Positions 1,861 to 33,533 of a stretch of 64,000 nucleotides of DNA are shown here, piece by piece. Below the pieces are notes generated by a model. That model was not told the DNA's origin. It saw nothing but the letters and a program-made list of their open reading frames with translations, and did not search any database. How positions within the stretch are numbered: the first letter of the stretch is position 1; each line of letters opens with the position of its first letter. The stretch covers positions 1,064,001 to 1,128,000 of the forward strand of contig NZ_CP034015.1 in NCBI RefSeq assembly GCF_003855395.1, given 5' to 3'. The DNA is from Shewanella livingstonensis. GTDB lineage: Bacteria > Pseudomonadota > Gammaproteobacteria > Enterobacterales > Shewanellaceae. A program made the position numbers and the translations under genes.

Positions 1861-2763
1861 TCACAAATCAAAATCCATTTGAATTGTGGTGTGTTGTTGA
1901 GGTAATAGGTTGATGTCGGTCAATGCTGACGTACTTTGTGCCATCTGCTGTTGCAGTAAACGATACAAATCAACCGCTAGTTGCGGCGCATAGTGATTAT
2001 CAGGCGTGTGAATAAACAAATAGGGTTGCTTATTTTGCGCAATCCACAATGGTAATTGTTTGAGCCAGTTTTGAAAAAAGTGTACATTTTCTTCAGCTTG
2101 TGGATGACCAATAAAGCGCACCACCGGGTTGTTTGCGGTTGCAATGGCATGTACTGGCACTTTAGGCTTTTCCTGGTGGGCATCTATCACTGCTGCTGTG
2201 GTTGGAGGTGCTGCAAAAACAGGCCGAGTATCCATAATGATACGATTACAGTGATGGTCTATAAGCAAACGGTTTAAGGCTTGCTCGGCTTCTCCTTTGG
2301 CAAAAAAAGCGCTGTTACGCACTTCTACGCCATACGTTAACCCTTGAGGTACTTGGGTTAAAAATTGTGCTAATTGTGGTAACGATTGCGGCCCAAAGCT
2401 TGCGGGGAGTTGAATTTTCCATATCCCGGTTCGGTTAATCAGAGGTTCCATTACCGTAAAAAATTGTTGTAAGGCTGGGCCAGCATGTTGTAGCTGTAAT
2501 TCGTGGGTAATGTGTTTGGGCAGTTTGAAGGTAAATTTAAACTCGTCATGGGTTGCAGCATACCAATTCTGTACATTTCGTAACGACGGCGTGGCGTAAA
2601 AAGTGGTGTTACCTTCGACAGTATTAAATATCTCTGCATAGCGCGCGAGCCGATGCACTTGGCTATTACCATAGATTGTTTGTTGCCATTGATTTTGTGA
2701 CCACATGGCCAATCCTAATCGTAATGGCGGACAGATTGTGGTTGTTGCAGTGCTATTTTCCAA
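1861..2763 (-). CDS. DUF72 (YecE-like) protein
   Basis: 300-residue member of the DUF72/YecE family, predicted TIM-barrel proteins of unknown biochemical role. Family features visible: an N-terminal LRLGLAMWSQNQW, FNTVEGNTTFYATP near residue 48, FTFKLPKHITH, LPASFGPQ and GVEVRNSAFF, and near the end PYLFIHTPDNHYAPQLA, which matches the conserved aromatic/His/Asn/Pro pattern. The length is usual for the family. A GAGGA ribosome-binding site lies ~10 nt upstream of the ATG. It is divergent from the penicillin-binding protein gene to the right. Function unknown; the family call is secure. Confidence 0.85.
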   Translation of the reverse strand: MENSTATTTICPPLRLGLAMWSQNQWQQTIYGNSQVHRLARYAEIFNTVEGNTTFYATPSLRNVQNWYAATHDEFKFTFKLPKHITHELQLQHAGPALQQFFTVMEPLINRTGIWKIQLPASFGPQSLPQLAQFLTQVPQGLTYGVEVRNSAFFAKGEAEQALNRLLIDHHCNRIIMDTRPVFAAPPTTAAVIDAHQEKPKVPVHAIATANNPVVRFIGHPQAEENVHFFQNWLKQLPLWIAQNKQPYLFIHTPDNHYAPQLAVDLYRLLQQQMAQSTSALTDINLLPQQHTTIQMDFDL

Positions 2764-2983
2764 AAAATCCTCAGGCTTAGAAATATGTTTGCATCTATAA
2801 ATATCGATATTGTGGCAATAACAGCTTTAATGGCCTAAAAAACAATATTTAGTTATTTTGTCTATATCTAATGGCTTTACCCATCTGATAAAATTATCAC
2901 AATTAGTTACGCGATGTATTGAACATCTCAACCAAAAGTTAAATGGTGCGTTATTGTGATTTTATGCGTTAGATGGAGAGTTT

Positions 2984-5900
2984 GTGTCTAGTCCACATAC
3001 AGACAGTGAGTTTGATAATTTTCGGCCTAATACATCTTCCGCCAAACCGACCCCGGTGCGTCGCAGTAAAGCAGGTTGGTTATTCATTGTATTATTGTTA
3101 GCAACGGCCTACCTCGTTGAGTTTGAGGTGCGCACATCGTTTTATCAATCTTATTTTCTGCATCAATATGCCACTAAATTAACCTATAAATTACGTGATT
3201 ATCGCAGTGATGCGGTGATTTACCCTAAATATGGTCCCTTTGATGATCGCCATGGTTATAGTCAATTACCGCAGAAAATAGCCCGTTTAATTGAGCGTAA
3301 GTATCAGGTTACTCAGCAAGTGGCGTTTTCGCCAATGCTGATGGAATATACTAACATCGGTTTTTTTCCGCCGTATCATGAAAAAGCTCAATCAGGCTTA
3401 ACCATAAAAGATTGCCGTGACATGACGGTATTTGATTTTTCATATCCAAAACGTGTTTATCAAGACCAAGATAAAATCCCCGACCAAGTGATTAACACCT
3501 TATTGTTTATCGAAAACCGTGAAATGCTGAGTCCAGAAGCAAGATATAACCCTGTGGTCGATTGGCCTCGGTTTGTGTTAGCTGCCGCTAGCCAGGTTGC
3601 CGGTATTTTTGGGGCTGACATGTCTAAAGCGGGCGGCAGTACCTTAGCTACTCAAATTGAAAAGTTTAGGCATTCTAACCATGGGTTAACCTTGAGCATT
3701 AAAGATAAGCTATTACAAATTGGTTCAGCCATTGTGCGAGTGTATCAACAAGGTGAAAGCACGGTTGGCGCTCGTCAACGCATCGTGCAGGATTATCTCA
3801 ACACAGTACCATTATCATCCGCGCCTGGTTTTGGTGAAGTCCATGGTATTGGTGATGGTTTATGGGCCTGGTTTAAAACCGACTTTAATCACGCTAACCA
3901 ATTGTTATTGAGCCGTCATACTCAGCAAAATGGCGCTGAGCGCGGCAAGGTGTTTCGACAAGTTGTAGCATTAATGATTGCCCAACGTCGACCATCTTAT
4001 TACTTACGCCAAGGCCATGATGATTTAGAATCGTTAGTAGATAGCTATTTGCGGTTACTGGGCGGTGAGGGCCTGATTGAAACGAAATTAATGGTGTCTG
4101 CTCTAGAGCAAACATTACAGTTTAATGCCAGTAAGTTGGTAAGCACTAACCTCGCTAATAATAAAGGGGTTAATGCTGTACGCATTCGCACTGCGGGCAT
4201 GCTCGATTTGAGCTTATTTGACCTAGATCGTTACGATTTATCGATTAACAGTACCTTCCATGGTGATTTACAACAACAAGTTAGCGATTACTTACGTAGC
4301 TTAGCTCAAGTGAACTCTGCTGAGCGTATTGGTTTATTAGGTGAGCGTTTGTTGACCGCTCAGCAGTTAGACAAAGTGTTATACAGTTTCACACTTTACG
4401 AAAGTACCGACAGTGCCAATAGAGTACGGATTCAAACCGACAGTATTGATCAGCCGTTTGATATTAACGAAGGCAGTAAGTTGGAGCTAGGTTCAACGGC
4501 TAAGTTACGTGTATTGGCGACATATTTAGATATTATTGCCGAATTACAACAGCGCTTTTCGGCAATGACGGTAGCCGATTTACGCCAAGTGGATGTGGAA
4601 CGTAAAGACCATATTACCCGCTGGGTGGTCGATTATTTAATTACCACTCGTGACCGTAATTTAACCCGCATGTTAGATGCTGCGTTGCAGCGCGAATATT
4701 CCGCTTCACCAGAAGAGCGCTTTTTTACCGGAGGTGGCCTGCATGTGTTTAACAATTTTAACAAAAAAGAAAACAGCCGTGTACCCACCTTATATCAAGC
4801 TCTACAAGAGTCGATAAACTTACCATTTGTGCGCTTAATGCAAGACATTGTTAATTATAGCAGCAGTTATAACAGCGAAGGCAGTGTGTCGCAGTTATTA
4901 CGTAATGATAAAGATCCGCGCCGTGAAGAATACCTAAAAGCATTTGCTAAGCGTGAGGGCAGTTCGTTTGTAAAGCGCTTTTATCGTAAATATCGTCAAC
5001 TTGCTCCAGAGCAACGTCTTGAGGTGTTATTTGATGGCATTCAACAACAAGAGCATAAGTTAACTGCGGTTTATCGTTATTTAAAACCCTACGATGGTGT
5101 TATGGAGTTAAAAGCGTTTTTAGCTCAACGCTTACCAGCAAAAACCTTTACCGATAAACAAATTAACGTGCTGTATAATAAGTACGGCGAAGAAAAGTTT
5201 AATTTGGCCGACCAAGGCTATATTGCTCGGGTGCATCCGCTAGAGTTGTGGGTATTACGTTATTTAAATGACTACCCAGAAACGGGCCTTACTCAAGTAT
5301 TAGAAGACGCGCAGCCACAGTTACAAGAAGTGTATCGTTGGCTGTTTAGAACGCGCCATCAAAATGCGCGTGATGTACGTATTCAAGTCATGTTAGAAGT
5401 AGAAGCATTCTTAAGTATTCACCAGCGTTGGGTGAGAATGGGTTATCCGTTTGAATACATGGTGCCGTCTTTGGGCTCGGCATTAGGTAGTTCGGGCGAT
5501 AGACCTGCTGCACTCGCTGAGTTAATGGGCATTATTCAAAATGATGGCTATCGCTATCCAACCGTTAGAATTGATGAATTACAGTTTGCCAAAGACACAC
5601 CTTACGAAGTGACCTTGGCTAATAATAAACAAATGGTCACACGAGTAATGCATCAGGAAGTGGCTCGGGCACTAAAACGCGCGCTGGCCAATGTGGTCGA
5701 AAATGGTACCGCTAGAAGGCTCAAAGGTAGCTTGCTGGATAATAATGGTCAACCTGTGGTTATGGGCGGAAAAACCGGTACAGGTGATAACCGTATTGCC
5801 ACTGAGATCCGCAATGGTCGTAAGGTATCGTCAACCGCCATTAACCGTACAGCAACGTTCGTGTTTTATTTAGGCGATCATCATTTTGGTACCTTAACAG

Positions 5901-25863: not shown

Positions 25864-26823
25864 CTAACTATAATCCATTGGGCTTTGTACACCGGTTTGG
25901 TGTAAACCAGCTACATGAGTATAAATTTGGGTCGTTTTTACATCGGTATGGCCTAATAGCTCCTGTACCGTTCTAATGTCGTGCCCACGCCTAAGTAAGT
26001 TTGTCGCAAAAGAATGCCTAAAAGTATGGGCGGTAATGCGTTTAGTGATATCGGTTTTCTGAACTGCTTTTTTTAATGCTTTTCGAAAGGTTGTTGGGTC
26101 AATATGATGTCTGCATATATAGTCATTAACAGGATGTGACACACAGTGAATCGAAGGAAAAAGATATTGCCAATGTAATTGTTTGGCGCTTGTGCCAAAC
26201 TTTTTGAGTAAGCTAGGAGGTAAAGAAGCCATCCCTAATCCCTGAGACAAATCGTGAGCATGAGTTTCTCGTACGTGGCACATCTGCTGCTGTATGGGGT
26301 CAATGGTCATTTTAGGTAAAATACAAACTCTATCTTTTTTACCTTTACCTCTAAATACAAAAAGAGTTCGATTTTCAAAATCGATATCCTTAAGTCTAAT
26401 ACTTAACGCTTCAGTTAATCTTAACCCCGCGCCATATAATAAACAGCCAATTAGTTGGTATTTACCGTGTAATTGGTCAATAACTTGTTTGGCCTCAGCA
26501 TCATTTAAAACCTGCGGAATTCGAGTCGGCGCTTTTGCATACGGGAACTGCAAATTGTCGGTATCGATGGCTAGTACATGTTTAAACGCAAAAACAAGGG
26601 CGCAAAGGGCTTGCTGTTGGGTACTGCTGGAAACACGCCGTTCGTTTGCTAAAAAACATAAAAACTGTTCAATGTGTGTAGGTAAAATATGTTTTGCAGC
26701 AGTAAATTTAAAATATCTTATAAAATAACGGTTCCAATAAAGGTATGATTTTTCAGTTTGATAGCTGTAATGCCTCACTCGAATTTGTTGTCGAATCGCT
26801 TCGATATATCCCGATCCCGCCAT
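25864..26823 (-). CDS. intI: Integron integrase IntI
   Basis: 319-residue tyrosine recombinase. The catalytic set is intact: Arg in GAGLRLTEAL, H-x-x-R in AHTFRHSFAT, His in LLGHTDVKTTQ and nucleophile Tyr in TQIYTHV. Between the first Arg and the HxxR box lies the IntI-specific insertion (LSQGLGMASLPPSLLKKFG...WQYLFPS), which separates integron integrases from XerC/D. It recombines attI and attC sites to capture or shuffle cassettes. The start MAGSGYIEAI is chosen because GGGGGAAGTG lies directly upstream and the usual IntI length results. An ATG 33 bp further up falls inside the LexA box. Orientation opposite to the cassettes is the standard integron layout. Confidence 0.95.
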   Translation of the reverse strand: MAGSGYIEAIRQQIRVRHYSYQTEKSYLYWNRYFIRYFKFTAAKHILPTHIEQFLCFLANERRVSSSTQQQALCALVFAFKHVLAIDTDNLQFPYAKAPTRIPQVLNDAEAKQVIDQLHGKYQLIGCLLYGAGLRLTEALSIRLKDIDFENRTLFVFRGKGKKDRVCILPKMTIDPIQQQMCHVRETHAHDLSQGLGMASLPPSLLKKFGTSAKQLHWQYLFPSIHCVSHPVNDYICRHHIDPTTFRKALKKAVQKTDITKRITAHTFRHSFATNLLRRGHDIRTVQELLGHTDVKTTQIYTHVAGLHQTGVQSPMDYS

Positions 26824-26848
26824 CACTTCCCCCTTTACGCTACCTATA

Positions 26849-26864
26849 CTGTTCATCCATACAG
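26849..26864. promoter_or_regulatory. LexA box in the intI promoter
   Basis: CTGTTCATCCATACAG is an exact CTGT-N8-ACAG LexA operator, 25 bp upstream of the intI ATG. SOS control of integron integrases through LexA is established in Vibrio and class 1 integrons, and this site implies the same here. Confidence 0.85.
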
Positions 26865-28429: not shown

Positions 28430-28513
28430 CAAATAAGGATAGGCCGCGCGAAGCCGCGTCCAACAAATAAGGATAGGCCGCGCGAAGCCGCGTCCTTATC
28501 CCAAGTGTTGAAC
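28424..28513 (+). other. attC3, with internal 34-bp duplication
   Basis: R'' ACATAAC (28424-28430) and R' GTTGAAC (28507-28513). R'' complements GTTATGT at the left edge of cassette 3. A 34-bp unit is present twice in tandem (28428-28461 and 28462-28495). The near-identical attC6 has it once. The core hairpin is GC-rich (GGCCGCGCGAAGCCGCG). Confidence 0.85.
28428..28495. repeat. Exact 34-bp tandem duplication inside attC3
   Basis: Two identical 34-bp units, each containing one GC-rich arm pair of the attC hairpin. The paralogous attC at 33478 has a single unit, so the duplication is recent. Confidence 0.95.
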
Positions 28514-28683
28514 AAGCCCGAACACCCTCAGAGTGACTCTTTATTATGTAAATAACAGCTCGAGAAAACGCGCTGTTTGATGTGATGGATATCTGGCAAC
28601 TTTTCTGTAGTCAGCAAGCTACCTTAGCTCATTTGCTAATTATTTAACTCTATTAATTTCAGTGCGTTAAATTAATCCTCCAC
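28507..28683. repeat. Copy A of a ~177-bp duplicated sequence
   Basis: Nearly identical to 33527-33702 (few substitutions, one short indel). Homology extends leftward through the attC and stops rightward after CTCCAC, where copy A meets the IS91-type element. Confidence 0.9.
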
Positions 28684-28722
28684 GGTATTCAGTTAAACCA
28701 TTATCCTTATTATTTTCCAGCA

Positions 28723-29796
28723 TTAGGTTATGAGCCGTAAATTTGTCGGTCGTTTCACTATGCCCATAAAGCGCATTGGCTGCTGGCAACAGGGGCAACA
28801 GCGGGTTGCTAATCTGCGCTTTATCTCAGGAATGATTGGAAACACTGCCCCTGCAACTGCCAGCATAAGCTGTATTTGTAGCCTGAGCTTTTTGGCGTTA
28901 CCTCTGAGTAATCCATAGTCACGCACTCGCCTTAATCCCTTCGGTAATACGTGTTGCAGTATTAACCAGAGAAATTCTATGGCAGGTAAAGTGCGTACTT
29001 TTGTCGACTTTGTTTGGCTGTCTTCATACTCGAAACTCACGTTGTTATCGACATGACTTTTGATGTTTTTGTCAGCCAGTACGCCACGATAAAGATAGCG
29101 TGATAGATACTGCAACGCAGGCAAGCCTTTGCCCACATGCAGGCAGTCTACCACCCACTTTTTGGGCAGTGAGGTTGGTAGTGTGAGATTAAGCTTTGCC
29201 AAATGTTCCAGCAAACGTGCGCGCCAGACATTGGCGAGGTTAAAAGCGTTAAACAGGTATTTACCTTTGTTCTTTTTCCATTGCTTTTGGCTCTTGTTAA
29301 AACTGCCCGCTGGAATAATAAAGTGAATGTGCGGATGCAATTCACGCCGTCTGCTGTGAGTATGAAGTACGCCGGTGAAACCAATATCACCGGCAAGCTT
29401 AGGTGAGTTAAGCGCAAAGTCTTTGAGCACACTGGCAGCGACGGCAAACATGGCTGGATAGAGCGCTTCGGGTTGATATCTAGCCATAACACGCAGTTCA
29501 TATGGCAAAGTAAATGTCACCATAAAGTAATCAACAGGCAAGAGTTTAGCCTGTTGCTTGGCTAACCAATCAGCTGTGGTGTTGTACTGACATTGCGGGC
29601 AGCTGCGATGCCCACATGACAGCGGAAAGTCAGCGGTATGCGTGCAACCCTGACAAGCCCAGTGGCTGGCTCTTTGTGAATGAGAGCGGCAACTGAGCAT
29701 GGCATTTATCGCTTGGCGCATTGATGCTGTGATTTGGCCTTCATAAGTCTGATTAAAGGCATCAAGATGGTCACGTAAAATATCGATAAACTTCAT
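28723..29796 (-). CDS. IS91-family transposase (HUH/Y2 rolling-circle)
   Basis: 357 residues. An N-terminal zinc-binding segment is visible (HWACQGCTHTADFPLSCGHRSCPQCQ). The HUH metal site is ELHPHIHFI (~157), and the paired catalytic tyrosines lie in LQYLSRYLYRG (~235). The C-terminus carries a second Cys cluster (TRCCPCCQQPMR). It nicks one DNA end and drives rolling-circle transposition. It overlaps the recombinase gene by four bases (ATGA). No interruption is seen, so the enzyme may be active. Confidence 0.92.
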   Translation of the reverse strand: MKFIDILRDHLDAFNQTYEGQITASMRQAINAMLSCRSHSQRASHWACQGCTHTADFPLSCGHRSCPQCQYNTTADWLAKQQAKLLPVDYFMVTFTLPYELRVMARYQPEALYPAMFAVAASVLKDFALNSPKLAGDIGFTGVLHTHSRRRELHPHIHFIIPAGSFNKSQKQWKKNKGKYLFNAFNLANVWRARLLEHLAKLNLTLPTSLPKKWVVDCLHVGKGLPALQYLSRYLYRGVLADKNIKSHVDNNVSFEYEDSQTKSTKVRTLPAIEFLWLILQHVLPKGLRRVRDYGLLRGNAKKLRLQIQLMLAVAGAVFPIIPEIKRRLATRCCPCCQQPMRFMGIVKRPTNLRLIT

Positions 29797-30683
29797 ATGT
29801 CACACTCCCACTTAAGCACCAAATTATCAGTGAGCTGGTTAATTGACAGGACAGTGTTCTTACGGGTAATTTGAGTGAGACGTGTATACTTTGCCGTGGT
29901 GTTGAGGCTGTTGTGACCGAGTAAATGCTGTACTGAGCGTAAATCGAGACCTTGTTCGAGCAAATGAGTGGCGTAGCTGTGGCGTAAATTATGTGGGCTG
30001 ATGGATTTGTGAATGTTGCACTCACGAATAACGCGCTTTAGTGCTTTTTGAATACCGCCTTTATCTATCATTGAACCTGGCTTACCGTCTTTACCGGGAA
30101 ACACATGGCGAGGATGACGATGAGTTTGCCAGTAATATCGCAGCGCTAACAATGTTCGTTGTGGTAAAGGGACTAGCCTATCCTTGCCGCCTTTGGCGTC
30201 ACGGATATGCACCTGCATCAACGCTGAATCAATATCGCCAACCTGCAATGAAATGGCTTCGCCGAGGCGCAATCCCATACTGTACAAGGTTAAAAAGCAC
30301 ACTTGATATCGCAGCTTATGGGTGAGACTAATAACAATAGAGACTTCGGCAGGGGTCAAAATGTCGGGTAAGCGTTTGACCTGCGGTGGCTTAACAATAC
30401 TCAGCCACTCCCAGTGTTGGTTAAGGACATATCGATAGAAAAACTGTAATCCATTACGGTCAAGTTTAACGGTACTCCATGAGTGAGAAGCAATTAAATC
30501 AGCAAAGTACCGCTTCAAATCATTGGTTGAAAGGTTGTCAGGACAGCAGTCAAAATAAGCACTAATACGCCTGACAGCGCGACTATAAGCGTCGATGGTA
30601 GCAGGCCGCTTGCCTTGGAGCGTTAAATTGATAAGATGTTGTTGATAAAGACAATCAAAGCGTTGTTGTTCGTGAGCGTTCAT
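29793..30683 (-). CDS. Tyrosine recombinase of the IS91-family element
   Basis: 296-residue XerC/D-like recombinase. Catalytic residues are visible: Arg in SMGLRLGEAISL, HxxR in SPHNLRHSYATHL, His in LLGHNSLNTT and Tyr in AKYTRLTQ. It lacks the IntI-specific insertion, so it is not an integron integrase. It lies upstream of, and coupled to, the transposase gene, as in IS91 elements that carry a recombinase. Its exact role in their transposition is unclear. SD is AGGAG. Confidence 0.9.
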   Translation of the reverse strand: MNAHEQQRFDCLYQQHLINLTLQGKRPATIDAYSRAVRRISAYFDCCPDNLSTNDLKRYFADLIASHSWSTVKLDRNGLQFFYRYVLNQHWEWLSIVKPPQVKRLPDILTPAEVSIVISLTHKLRYQVCFLTLYSMGLRLGEAISLQVGDIDSALMQVHIRDAKGGKDRLVPLPQRTLLALRYYWQTHRHPRHVFPGKDGKPGSMIDKGGIQKALKRVIRECNIHKSISPHNLRHSYATHLLEQGLDLRSVQHLLGHNSLNTTAKYTRLTQITRKNTVLSINQLTDNLVLKWECDI

Positions 30684-30783
30684 AGTAATACTCCTAGATA
30701 GCTGCCAAGGTAGGCAGGGTCTAGTAAGTATTTATGATGGGGCTAAAGATGTGTTTTTATCTTTTCTGCCGCAGAGCGGCTTC

Positions 30784-30881
30784 GTTCAACAAGCCAATCA
30801 AGCAGGACAAAAAACAGTTTGCTGTTTTCGTGCCTCAACATTTTAGCAAACAATTTTTTGCCTCTTATTGGGGCGTTAGCA
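30784..30881 (+). other. attC4
   Basis: R'' GTTCAAC (30784-30790) and R' GTTAGCA (30875-30881) around a palindrome with arms such as ACAGTTTGCTG and TTAGCAAACAA. It closes the IS-interrupted cassette 4. Confidence 0.88.
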
Positions 30882-30939
30882 GGCTTTAAATATTTGTGTT
30901 ATCAGCACTATAATTTAACAATTTTGGATATTAAAAATA

Positions 30940-31104: not shown

Positions 31105-31200
31105 TGCTAACAAGGCCTTCAAACGGACAAAATACAGTTGGCTATTTTCACTCCGTTCAATATTTTAGCCAACAATATTTTGCCGCTTAAGGTGGCGTTA
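31105..31200 (+). other. attC5, core site split by the group II intron
   Basis: R'' TGCTAAC (31105-31111) complements the left core of cassette 5 (GTTAGCA). The palindrome ends in GGCGTTA at 31200. The last three bases of the core (TGT) lie beyond the intron at 33165-33167, giving GTTATGT when joined. Confidence 0.85.
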
Positions 31201-33164
31201 GTGCGTCAAGCAAAGCTTGATGCATCTTGCAGGGTGTAAGTCCCTGTCAGGTAAGGTTTAACCAACCACCTGTATCGAGTGTTGCACCTTTGGCGGAGTG
31301 TGAGATTAGCAGATGCTTTTCAGCAGTGAGGACTGCATCACGCGAACAATATTGGTGAAGCGTACACAGAGAATTATGTAGGCCATAGGGGTTGTCGTGA
31401 TCCTGAAGTGCTGGTATCGCTCCGATAAATATTAGAACTGACTGACGAGGTTTGTAACGCCATCGAAGTCCATGCAAAGCAGCCGTTATTCATGTAAATG
31501 AAGGGTGAGGTTGTGGCGAGTCAGCGGAGTTATCAAGCCGTGGCATGCATAAAGAGATGTTTCAGGAACTTGAGAGATCCAAAGGTGTTCCATTAGGACG
31601 ATGGTAGAGAAGTCTAGTTAAAAGCGAGACGAACGATGACCCTTTGGAAGTCAGATCAGCCCGTAGTAGTCTGAGCAGGGGAAAGCCTTGTACATGGCAA
31701 AGGAGCTGACAGTTATATTCGGTATTAAGCAGAGACATAGTCCGGACAAAGTAGGGCTGGGGACACTATGATAACCACACTTAATGCCATCGCATTTAAA
31801 GCACAAACCCACCCCAAGCACAGGTTTCAGAATTTATATGGACTGCTAAATACTGACAGCCTGTATCAAAGCTGGGGGCAACTTAATAAGCAAGCGAAGC
31901 CAGGTATCGATGGCATTACCATGCCTAAGTACCGAGATAAGCTGATAGAAAATATCGACCGTTTAGGTCAGCAACTCAAACAGAAATGTTATCGAGTTAA
32001 TGACATCAAACGGATCTTCATTCCTAAATCGAACGGTAAATTACGCCCTTTAGGCCTACCAACGGTAGATGACAAGCTAGTGCAACAAAGTGTCAGTCAG
32101 ATCCTGCAAAGCATCTGGGAACAAGACTTTTTGCGTAATAGCTATGGTTATCGCCCGAATAAAAGTGCGCATCAAGCGGTGCATAGTTTAACGCTCAATC
32201 TGCAATTTAAAGGTTATGGTTATATTGTTGAAGCTGATATTAAGGGCTTCTTTGACAACCTTGATCATGAATGGCTGATGGCTATGCTCAAGCAACGAAT
32301 TGATGACAAGGCGATACTTAATTTAATAAACCAATGGTTAAAAGCACGGATAAAATCCCCTGATGGTGTCTTTACTAAGCCATTAAGTGGTAGCCCACAA
32401 GGTGGCATTATCAGCCCTGTGTTAGCTAATATTTATTTGCATTATGCGCTAGACCTTTGGTTTGAAAAGAAAGTGAAGCCAAGGATGAAAGGCAGAGCAA
32501 TGATGATCCGTTATGCGGATGATTTTGTTTGTGCGTTTCAGTTTGCACATGATGCTGAACGCTTTTATAAGGTTTTGCCGAAACGATTAAAGAAATTCAA
32601 CCTAGACGTCGCAGAAGATAAAACATCACTGATGCGATTTAGCCGCTTTCATATTGGGCGAAAACGTCATTTTGTATTTCTTGGATTTGAGTTTTACTGG
32701 GGCAGAGATTCGAAAGGTAAAGCAAGACTCAGACGACGAACCGCTGTGAAGAAGCTGAAGGCGACGTTGAGCGAGTATTATCAATGGATTAAAGCCAAGC
32801 GCTCATTAAAACTGAGTATTTGGCTTCCGCAGTTAAAACGTAAATTAACAGGGTTTAGAAACTATTTTGGTCTTCCCGACAACAGCCGAAGCCTGAGCTA
32901 CGTATACGATTATGTTCTGCATAACTTGTACAAATGGTTGAACAGACGCAGTGGTCGACGAAGTTACAACTGGAGTAATTTCAAGAAGATGTTAGAGTAT
33001 TTTAGAATTGAGAGTCCAAAAGTCAGTAAGCGTCTAGTGCTGGTTGATTGGTACTAGGGTCGTGTTTTACACGAGTGAATATATAACTGAAGAGCCGGAT
33101 GCGGTAGTTCCGCACGTCCGGATCTGTGTGGGGTCGGGTCAGTAATGGCCCGCTCTACCACGAT
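31201..33164 (+). mobile_element. Group II intron, class C type, inserted in an attC core
   Basis: The 5' end is GTGCG, the standard group II start. About 560 bp of structured sequence (domains I-III) precede the reverse transcriptase gene. Domain V is recognisable at 33092-33125 (GAGCCGGATGCGG, TAGTT loop, CCGC, ACG bulge, TCCGGATC), and a domain VI-like hairpin follows to CTCTACCACGAT. The 3' end at 33164 is inferred because the next bases TGT restore the core GTTATGT, the exact complement of the cassette-6 R'' (ACATAAC). Class C introns are known to use attC hairpins as targets. Confidence 0.88.
31768..33057 (+). CDS. ltrA: Group II intron reverse transcriptase/maturase
   Basis: 429 residues. 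RT motifs in order: RRIFIPKSNGKLRPLGLPTV-like start of the fingers (IKRIFIPKSNGKLRPLG), ADIKGFFDNLDH (first catalytic Asp), GSPQGGIISPVLANIYLH, MIRYADDFVCAF (catalytic YADD), KTSLMRFS and FLGFEF. A maturase X domain follows (LTGFRNYFGL...VYDYVLHNLYKWLNRRS). No C-terminal HNH endonuclease, as expected for class C. It assists intron splicing and copies the intron into new sites. The frame is intact. SD is GGGGA. Confidence 0.93.
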   Translation: MITTLNAIAFKAQTHPKHRFQNLYGLLNTDSLYQSWGQLNKQAKPGIDGITMPKYRDKLIENIDRLGQQLKQKCYRVNDIKRIFIPKSNGKLRPLGLPTVDDKLVQQSVSQILQSIWEQDFLRNSYGYRPNKSAHQAVHSLTLNLQFKGYGYIVEADIKGFFDNLDHEWLMAMLKQRIDDKAILNLINQWLKARIKSPDGVFTKPLSGSPQGGIISPVLANIYLHYALDLWFEKKVKPRMKGRAMMIRYADDFVCAFQFAHDAERFYKVLPKRLKKFNLDVAEDKTSLMRFSRFHIGRKRHFVFLGFEFYWGRDSKGKARLRRRTAVKKLKATLSEYYQWIKAKRSLKLSIWLPQLKRKLTGFRNYFGLPDNSRSLSYVYDYVLHNLYKWLNRRSGRRSYNWSNFKKMLEYFRIESPKVSKRLVLVDWY

Positions 33165-33185
33165 TGTTTTCAAGGATGATTCGAG

Positions 33186-33470
33186 ATTAATATTTACCGC
33201 ACGCTAGCAATATCAATTATTATCCCGAGTGTAATCGTCATTTTGGGTGTTCAATCTACCTACTGGTTTTCTTTACGTAGTGTGTTAACTAATATCGAAA
33301 TTTTTTATTCTATTATCGCCATCGTTAGTGGTATTTATCTGTTTAAAAGTATCAAGTTTCATTCAAAACCTAAACTTATTATTGCGTGGTTAACTTATTT
33401 ATTTGTATTGGCACAACTCATATTTTGGGGTAGTTTACTTACAGCATGTGCAAATGGTGATTGCCTCTAG
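33186..33470 (+). CDS. Cassette 6 small membrane protein; 5' end irregular
   Basis: The frame encodes up to ~95 residues with three likely membrane segments (YRTLAISIIIPSVIVILGV, EIFYSIIAIVSGIYLF and LIIAWLTYLFVLAQLIFWGSLL), ending ACANGDCL. No standard start gives the first helix. A good AAGGATG lies at 33172-33178, but its ATG reads only M-I-R-D-stop in another frame. Either translation begins at ATT 33186, a rare start, or a one-base change separated the ATG from the body; a TTG at 33243 would lose helix one. It lies directly after the intron's 3' end. Confidence 0.5.
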   Translation: MNIYRTLAISIIIPSVIVILGVQSTYWFSLRSVLTNIEIFYSIIAIVSGIYLFKSIKFHSKPKLIIAWLTYLFVLAQLIFWGSLLTACANGDCL

Positions 33471-33477
33471 CACGAAA

Positions 33478-33533
33478 ACATAACAAATAAGGATAGGCCG
33501 CGCGAAGCCGCGTCCTTATCCCAAGTGTTGAAC
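33478..33533 (+). other. attC6, last site of the array
   Basis: R'' ACATAAC (33478-33484) and R' GTTGAAC (33527-33533). Only 56 bp, with a compact GC-rich hairpin; it is the single-unit version of attC3. R'' pairs with the intron-split core GTTA/TGT, so cassette 6 spans the intron. Confidence 0.85.

Follow-up and report, generated by a model that had tools for sequence, protein, structure and literature searches.

A group IIC intron on the cassette strand, at the top-strand end of attC, and its relatives

Introduction

Group IIC introns with an endonuclease-free maturase are held to reverse-splice beside a stem-loop, with replication giving the primer (PMC4424553, PMC7923331, both in part). 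Their ends follow a published consensus, GUGYG on the 5′ side and AXX(X)XRAY on the 3′ side (PMC7923331, in part). The IIC-attC introns of the S.ma.I2 type sit on the bottom strand of attC, at R″, where they split TTGT/T and run opposite to the cassettes (PMC7923331, in part). The original prediction for the DNA analysed here, made from its letters, took such introns to be mostly opposite to the cassette genes, and two papers, as far as the available text of each goes, agree (PMC7923331, PMC9229058). S.ma.I2 itself is reported to have disrupted the transcription of downstream cassettes from Pc and to have given an outward promoter of its own (PMC8876359, in part).

Introns in the cassette orientation are known in print as single exceptions. 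A group IIC intron of Enterobacter cloacae is reported to share the orientation of its cassettes, to occupy the top strand of attC and not to be an IIC-attC intron (Rodriguez-Martinez et al., 2012, cited in PMC7923331, in part); its orientation and strand, as the citing text gives them, are those of the intron described below. The class C-attC intron of Shewanella algae KC-Na-R1 likewise has the orientation of its cassettes, against the usual rule, and is reported as one case (PMC9229058, in part). UHB.I2, just downstream of an attC, shares this orientation too, but it is a group IIB1 intron with a CL1 maturase, unlike the group IIC intron here (PMC7923331, in part). The available parts of PMC4424553, PMC8876359, PMC12901181, PMC3053210 and PMC10011109 name no further orientation exceptions. 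As a lineage, top-strand attC introns are apparently undescribed: no description was found in a search of the open literature that did not take in Quiroga and Centron (2009) and Rodriguez-Martinez et al. (2012), the likeliest places for one.

How a group IIC intron reads its exons is seen in the cryo-EM structure of the E.r. intron, in which the terminal loop of D1d serves as EBS1 and the coordination loop contains EBS3. Both pair with exons behind a DNA stem-loop, and the first base of the 3′ exon, a T, pairs with an A (PMC10190682, in part).

The intron and its ends

The window, by which we mean the whole 64,000-nt stretch of Shewanella livingstonensis DNA that was analysed, is part of a single-contig genome of 4.84 Mb. 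It contains the following intron and intron parts.

31201-33164, + strand: group IIC intron, 1964 nt, 5′ GTGCG and 3′ ACCACGAT (RF02005, RF00029, second copy, EBS1/IBS1, EBS3/IBS3)
31768-33057, + strand: intron-encoded reverse transcriptase/maturase (IEP), 429 aa, YADD motif, stop codon included; RVT_1 124 bits
33090-33164, + strand: domains V and VI (RF00029 alignment)
33157, + strand: predicted branch-point A, from the AXX(X)XRAY rule

The 5′ exon reads GGTGGCGTTA up to 31200, and the intron opens with GTGCGTCAAG at 31201; at the other junction, CTCTACCACGAT runs up to 33164 and TGTTTTC follows from 33165. Rfam RF02005 recognizes 31237-31539 on the + strand (80.7 bits, E 6e-21). The model of domains V-VI, RF00029, is matched over its whole length and stops exactly at 33164 (E 9e-7), with a score, 39.1 bits, just under the gathering score of 40. 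Four lines agree on the two ends: the end of the RF00029 model, the match of GTGCG and ACCACGAT to the published GUGYG and AXX(X)XRAY consensus, a second copy of the intron, and the pairing of both exons. The boundaries first proposed, 31201 and 33164, are borne out by this agreement; a fold against group II models had been suggested as a check, and the RF00029 covariance model puts the 3′ end exactly at 33164, not elsewhere.

In the maturase, Pfam finds RVT_1 and, just under the cut-off, GIIM (21.7 versus 23), and no endonuclease domain. The solved structures nearest to it by sequence are the GsI-IIC reverse transcriptase, at the top, and the group II maturase 7uim; its assignment to class C draws on Pfam and these structures. 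Domain I and domains V-VI, the end consensus, exon recognition by EBS1 and EBS3, an upstream stem-loop and an endonuclease-free maturase are all present, and the original call of a class C group II intron holds on the two Rfam families, the end consensus and the maturase.

The second copy lies in the same genome at about 2.244-2.246 Mb. It is 97.4% identical over 2063 aligned bases, attC included, and has identical ends, GGCGTTA in front and TGT behind, in another attC. A near-identical copy with different flanks and 10 differing codons is found in Shewanella saliphila (L007). These copies bear on the possibility that the intron is a dead relic, no longer splicing or moving, whose position would be uninformative on current function. 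Several relatives are indeed truncated or carry stops, and our conclusions rest on sequence. Against a relic stand the open 429-aa frame with its YADD motif, the preservation of domains V-VI and of the two exon pairings, the synonymous excess between the two copies of the genome (17 synonymous versus 5 nonsynonymous codon differences) and the S. saliphila copy in its other flanks; we give this explanation a slim chance.

A different group II intron (RF02001, RF00029; 343-aa open frame) lies a few kilobases behind the second copy, on the other strand (L005, 13245-15211, minus).

A split attC core

The intron stands between the following parts of a cassette array, the boxes of the upstream attC being read from the sequence.

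31105-31200, + strand: attC of the cassette upstream of the intron (sequence, arm score, fold)
31105-31111, + strand: R″ of this attC, TGCTAAC
About 31117-31126 and about 31183-31191, + strand: its L″ and L′
31197-31200, + strand: first core part, GTTA
33165-33167, + strand: second core part, TGT, complementary to the ACATAAC that ends the same cassette; its first base is IBS3
33165-33484, + strand: cassette that follows the intron and closes with R″ ACATAAC (33478-33484), then an IS91-like end

The core GTTATGT is divided by the intron as GTTA/TGT. This split of the R′ core, a central claim of the original prediction, is seen in the sequence and again in the second copy, which has identical ends and lies in a different attC. 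As had been noted, the joined core GTTATGT is the one expected from ACATAAC, the R″ of the next cassette, with the caveat that the IS91-like end abuts that R″. The arm score of the upstream attC, 9.9, equals the 95% value of its controls. Taken with the first three intron bases (31105-31203), the site has a fold z of -3.9 on the top strand, while its bottom strand is predicted to form a hairpin like that of an attC (-19.1 kcal/mol, z -4.9).

After insertion, the upstream attC still has its crossover G/TT, its R″ and its two L boxes in one contiguous stretch, and the intron's GTG stands in for the last three core bases, giving the substitute core GTTAGTG. The insertion probably leaves this attC able to recombine, and its recombination is expected to be altered, not abolished. 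It had been proposed that the intron should block recombination at the site until spliced or lost. A block is not favoured on the present reading, because the crossover and both L boxes are intact and GTG supplies GTTAGTG; moreover, splicing takes place at the RNA level and would leave the DNA site as it is.

A more far-reaching scheme makes GTTAGTG a working core through which IntI lifts the intron together with the next cassette. The intron would then be the spliced leader of that cassette, in a second, separate attC-specific lineage on the top strand over several phyla, spreading by reverse splicing as well as by integron recombination, and excised circles would begin TTAGTGCG. We regard this scheme as unlikely. 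When the 5′ and 3′ flanks of the loci were compared all-against-all, no intron-plus-cassette unit was found in two contexts, and no pair of loci had the same cassette behind the intron and a different front; the matches that did emerge were attC-like flanks, the IS91-like end, a small repeat, and repeats within L019.

Direction of the array

The direction of the cassettes is given by the integrase gene, which has counterparts at other loci of the lineage.

25864-26856, - strand: intI, integron integrase, 330 aa (Pfam Phage_integrase and SAM_4), divergent from the cassettes
Loci with a divergent upstream intI: L006 (the window), L007, L021 (a 69-aa piece), L033, L077 (cut by the contig end), L143, L145

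Since intI lies divergently upstream on the minus strand, the array runs in the + direction and the intron is co-directional with the cassettes. The original placement of the intron on the cassette strand is upheld both by this gene and by the orientation of the core, GTTA/TGT. An intI divergent from a cassette array with attC is the arrangement of a chromosomal integron. Among loci of the lineage having a gene at least 35% identical to the intI of the window, it is divergent and upstream in 7 of 7, a count that leaves out tyrosine recombinases below 35% identity and the IntI matches in L123 and L125, which are loci of other reverse transcriptases. Recombinases below this threshold occur on the intron's own strand in L025, L054, L065 and L068. 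They match Xer-type or IS91-linked enzymes equally well or almost equally well, though the one in L068 (31%, E 3e-39) may be an integron integrase.

Survey of relatives

Genome contigs were scanned with an 18-maturase alignment; the best 80 of the 272 relatives obtained in this way were kept, and further genomes were added. Duplicate loci of one genome record, junctions with fewer than 6 nt of exon, 3′ ends below 40 bits or not reaching the profile end and, for the junction count, the plasmid loci L100-L104 were dropped before counting. The 72 distinct 5′ junctions that have 6 nt or more of exon comprise 46 after GTTA, 2 after GTTG and 24 that are not GTTR. The bottom-strand reading TTGTT occurs at none of the 48 GTTR junctions; the two bases before GTTR are GC in 28, TC in 7, AC in 7 and others in 6, with TT in none. 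The window intron had seemed an odd single case, which it is not, given that 48 of 72 junctions share its position. The survey of orientation called for at the outset makes the same-orientation position the usual one among relatives, with intI divergent upstream wherever it was counted. The cassette-strand position at the top-strand R′ end is, as read from these junctions, usual in the lineage, and the exceptions are real.

The exon arms were scored as attC at the 42 of 48 GTTR junctions with enough flank. Measured against 581 matched control sites, 13 of these attain the 95% value, and the medians are 7.6 versus 3.9 for the controls (Mann-Whitney p 4e-8). The attC finder is simple and strand-symmetric, with 50 top-strand and 50 bottom-strand matches in the flanks, some of them IS ends or chance by their look, and was not used for direction. 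To test the split core, we took the nearest attC-like site in the 1200 nt behind the intron, which was available for 15 of 36 3′ ends. The 3′ exon triplet and the R″ triplet of this site are complementary in 10 of the 15 (shuffled mean 2.03, observed value reached in 0 of 10000), the failures being L008, L061 twice, L143 and L144. When the two rows flagged for an IS91-like end (L005 and the window) are set aside, 8 of 13 match (shuffled 1.22, 0 of 10000). By eye, L146 and one L061 row also resemble relatives of the IS91-like end; leaving out all four rows gives 7 of 11, a hand count with no shuffle.

GTTR members come from Pseudomonadota, Thermodesulfobacteriota, Planctomycetota, Nitrospinota, Bacillota and one KSB1 bacterium, several of them binned metagenomes. 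On the IEP tree, a gammaproteobacterial clade of 28 rows (support 100/100) holds 19 GTTR, 3 other and 6 unmapped members. GTTR needs 23 changes on this tree, which thus does not show one origin. In the genome G783, by inference Aliiglaciecola sp. LCG003, four different CGTTA sites are occupied, three by full copies and one by a partial copy.

With 24 of 72 junctions outside GTTR, the wider clade is not purely attC-specific. Methylobacter copies lie at ATAACT-type sites with matching EBS1, L014 lies at GTCA, and L020 and L146 look eroded or rearranged. Such sites raise the question whether these are terminator-targeting group IIC introns, one of which landed on an attC hairpin by accident: several members of the wider clade have no GTTR (Methylobacter L052, L053, L060 and L066; L048, L049), and two, L013 and L014, lie by eye in or beside other coding sequence. 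An accident would hardly be repeated at 48 of 72 junctions, however, nor would the exon arms score as attC above matched controls, and both copies in the window genome and all four in G783 lie at CGTTA. We hold a terminator-targeting origin to be improbable, and a lineage that usually occupies the top-strand attC end remains the preferred reading.

Some loci deserve a separate remark. The two seen in or beside coding sequence are L013 around 2532-4489 and L014 around 3425; L013 appears to have each flank from a different gene, suggesting a rearrangement or a recombination event between copies of the intron. In L143 of G783, the intron follows CATAACAAGCGTTA before 15078, which reads like an attC whose R″-R′ hairpin has been lost. 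Among the loci viewed, no intron was noticed directly at attI.

Exon recognition and the choice of strand

Both exons have a candidate partner in domain I.

31194-31200, + strand: IBS1, 5′ exon GGCGTTA, exact reverse complement of the EBS1 loop
31455-31461, + strand: EBS1 candidate TAACGCC (RNA UAACGCC), terminal loop of a domain I hairpin, with covariation
31532, + strand: EBS3 candidate, A, pairing with IBS3, T33165, the first 3′ exon base

Between the EBS1 loop and the exon GGUGGCGUUA there are 10 contiguous pairs, nine Watson-Crick and one G-U (score 9.5), the last few of which may belong to the stem instead. The position fits that of EBS1 in the E.r. structure, the terminal loop of D1d. 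IBS1 of the E.r. intron makes four contiguous pairs and one discontinuous pair (PMC10190682, in part), whereas the window intron has at least 7 contiguous pairs with the attC end.

In the relatives, EBS1 loops were chosen blind to the exon, a procedure that replaced a first test in which the best motif was picked with the exon in view. Loops were found for 46 of 62 junctions and missed for 16, L025 and L027 among them. Pairing with the own exon averages 5.76 versus 4.34 for shuffled exons (0 of 2000 shuffles, relatedness ignored), a count that retains two clearly wrong loop picks (L014, L061). For the 16 deduplicated exons that do not end in CGTTA, the values are 5.06 versus 3.07 (0 of 5000, relatedness ignored). 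Loop and exon change together, as in GTTG-CAAC (L010), ACATTA-TAATGT (L044), ATAACT-AGTTAT (L053, L060) and AATCTTG-CAAGATT (L048); by eye, the EBS1 loop of L146 is interrupted. The 10 contiguous pairs and the covariation across relatives place the EBS1/IBS1 pairing beyond chance, and it is very likely, on these comparisons, that pairing of EBS1 with GGCGTTA is how the target is found.

For EBS3, a first, narrower pattern gave 9 loci with 6 pairs, a value that 274 of 5000 shuffles reach. A wider pattern has its motif in 40 of 49 introns and is absent from 9; in those 40, the EBS3 base and the first 3′ exon base form 29 Watson-Crick pairs versus 16.0 in shuffles (0 of 3000, relatedness ignored). 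The position was picked after the alignment had been viewed, and the four offsets after it, which serve as controls, show no pairing signal.

These pairings also speak to the strand. EBS1 matches GGCGTTA, the top-strand R′ end, over 7 bases and shares only GTTA with the bottom-strand TTGTTRRRY, which would explain the choice of the top strand. One might instead suppose an ordinary bottom-strand IIC-attC intron that became co-directional through inversion of its attC or of the array, a supposition encouraged by the opposite direction in which IIC-attC introns are described and by the near symmetry of the attC hairpin, which folds on both strands. Yet the exon is GGCGTTA/T and not TTGT/T, EBS1 matches the top-strand end, and the downstream R″ triplets and divergent intI support the top strand in many independent loci. 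An inversion is scarcely credible, and the intron is better taken as one that targets the top strand directly.

Relation to known introns and proposed mechanism

With the S.ma.I2-type IIC-attC introns, the window intron shares a group IIC ribozyme, an endonuclease-free maturase and a preference for the attC hairpin. It differs in lying on the top strand, at the R′ end, at GTTA/T and in the same direction as the cassettes: insertion into attC is found here, and neither the bottom strand with its opposite direction nor TTGT/T at R″ is. As judged from sequence features, it works like an attC-targeting IIC intron and fails two defining features of the S.ma.I2 type, strand and target. We take the lineage as a counterpart, on the top strand, of the bottom-strand introns already described. 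The S.ma.I2 type (maturase AAL51020.1) is set apart by its described strand and target, not by maturase comparison. Among the loci viewed from plasmids (best 120 of 4514 records per search) and from 129 Shewanella genomes, none has the bottom-strand attC position; the Shewanella loci tested with Rfam fell in other group II families. The closest maturase match in the plasmid collection is 43.8% identical (best-ranked of 4514 records with a match). The plasmid loci L100-L104 belong to the same Rfam family as the window intron and are not in attC as far as their sequence was covered.

We consider it highly probable that this is a cassette-strand group IIC intron whose RNA would target the top-strand attC end GGCGTTA through EBS1 UAACGCC, would be co-transcribed and spliced with the cassettes, and would leave the site altered and not destroyed. 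Insertion would proceed by reverse splicing into the top-strand attC hairpin exposed as single-stranded DNA, the L′/L″ stem serving as the stem-loop that IIC introns require, with replication supplying the primer for a maturase that has no endonuclease domain. Once inserted, the intron would be carried in the array transcript and removed from it by splicing, restoring GGCGUUA/UGU, and downstream cassettes would not be shut off. The upstream attC would keep its G/TT crossover with the substitute core GTTAGTG.

The direction of the intron matters here. By the nature of splicing, introns antisense to the cassettes cannot be removed from the array transcript; for an intron in sense, splicing would repair that transcript. 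A sense-strand lineage of this kind would vanish from array messages once spliced, leaving the attC crossover bases in place. The strand choice yields a testable rule, EBS1 set against the two attC ends, and in this lineage what had been recorded as an oddity becomes a rule whose base-pairing basis can be tested. It also bears on the idea that attC introns help to build cassettes (PMC7923331, in part).

Mobile elements beside the intron

The IS91-like element of the window (about 28430-30882 and from 33485; also L158-L165) has an HUH-type transposase, and next to it is a gene for a tyrosine recombinase. The hairpin end of the element (AATAAGGATAGGCCGCGCG...) was seen at seven of eight places in the genome, with ATAAC directly before it in five and ATAC or CAAC in two. 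At about 28430-28500 of the window there is a 34-bp tandem duplication of this end directly behind ACATAAC. The similarity of the L005 and L162 copies to the window extends to about 30880, so that an attC-like end (GTTCAAC...GGGGCGTTA) seems to be part of the shared unit. The element may enter attC behind R″, or it may travel like a cassette; an IS91-like element, ISShvi3, has been described beside attC (PMC9229058, in part).

A small repeat, about 130-150 bp long and bounded by the inverted ends AGGCTGTAGAAT...ATTCTACAGCCTCGTTA, also occurs at attC cores: in L010 from 3995, in L020 from 5398, in L025 before 3419, in L027 before 1340 and in the 5′ exons of L011 and L148. The intron stands either in front of it or behind it.
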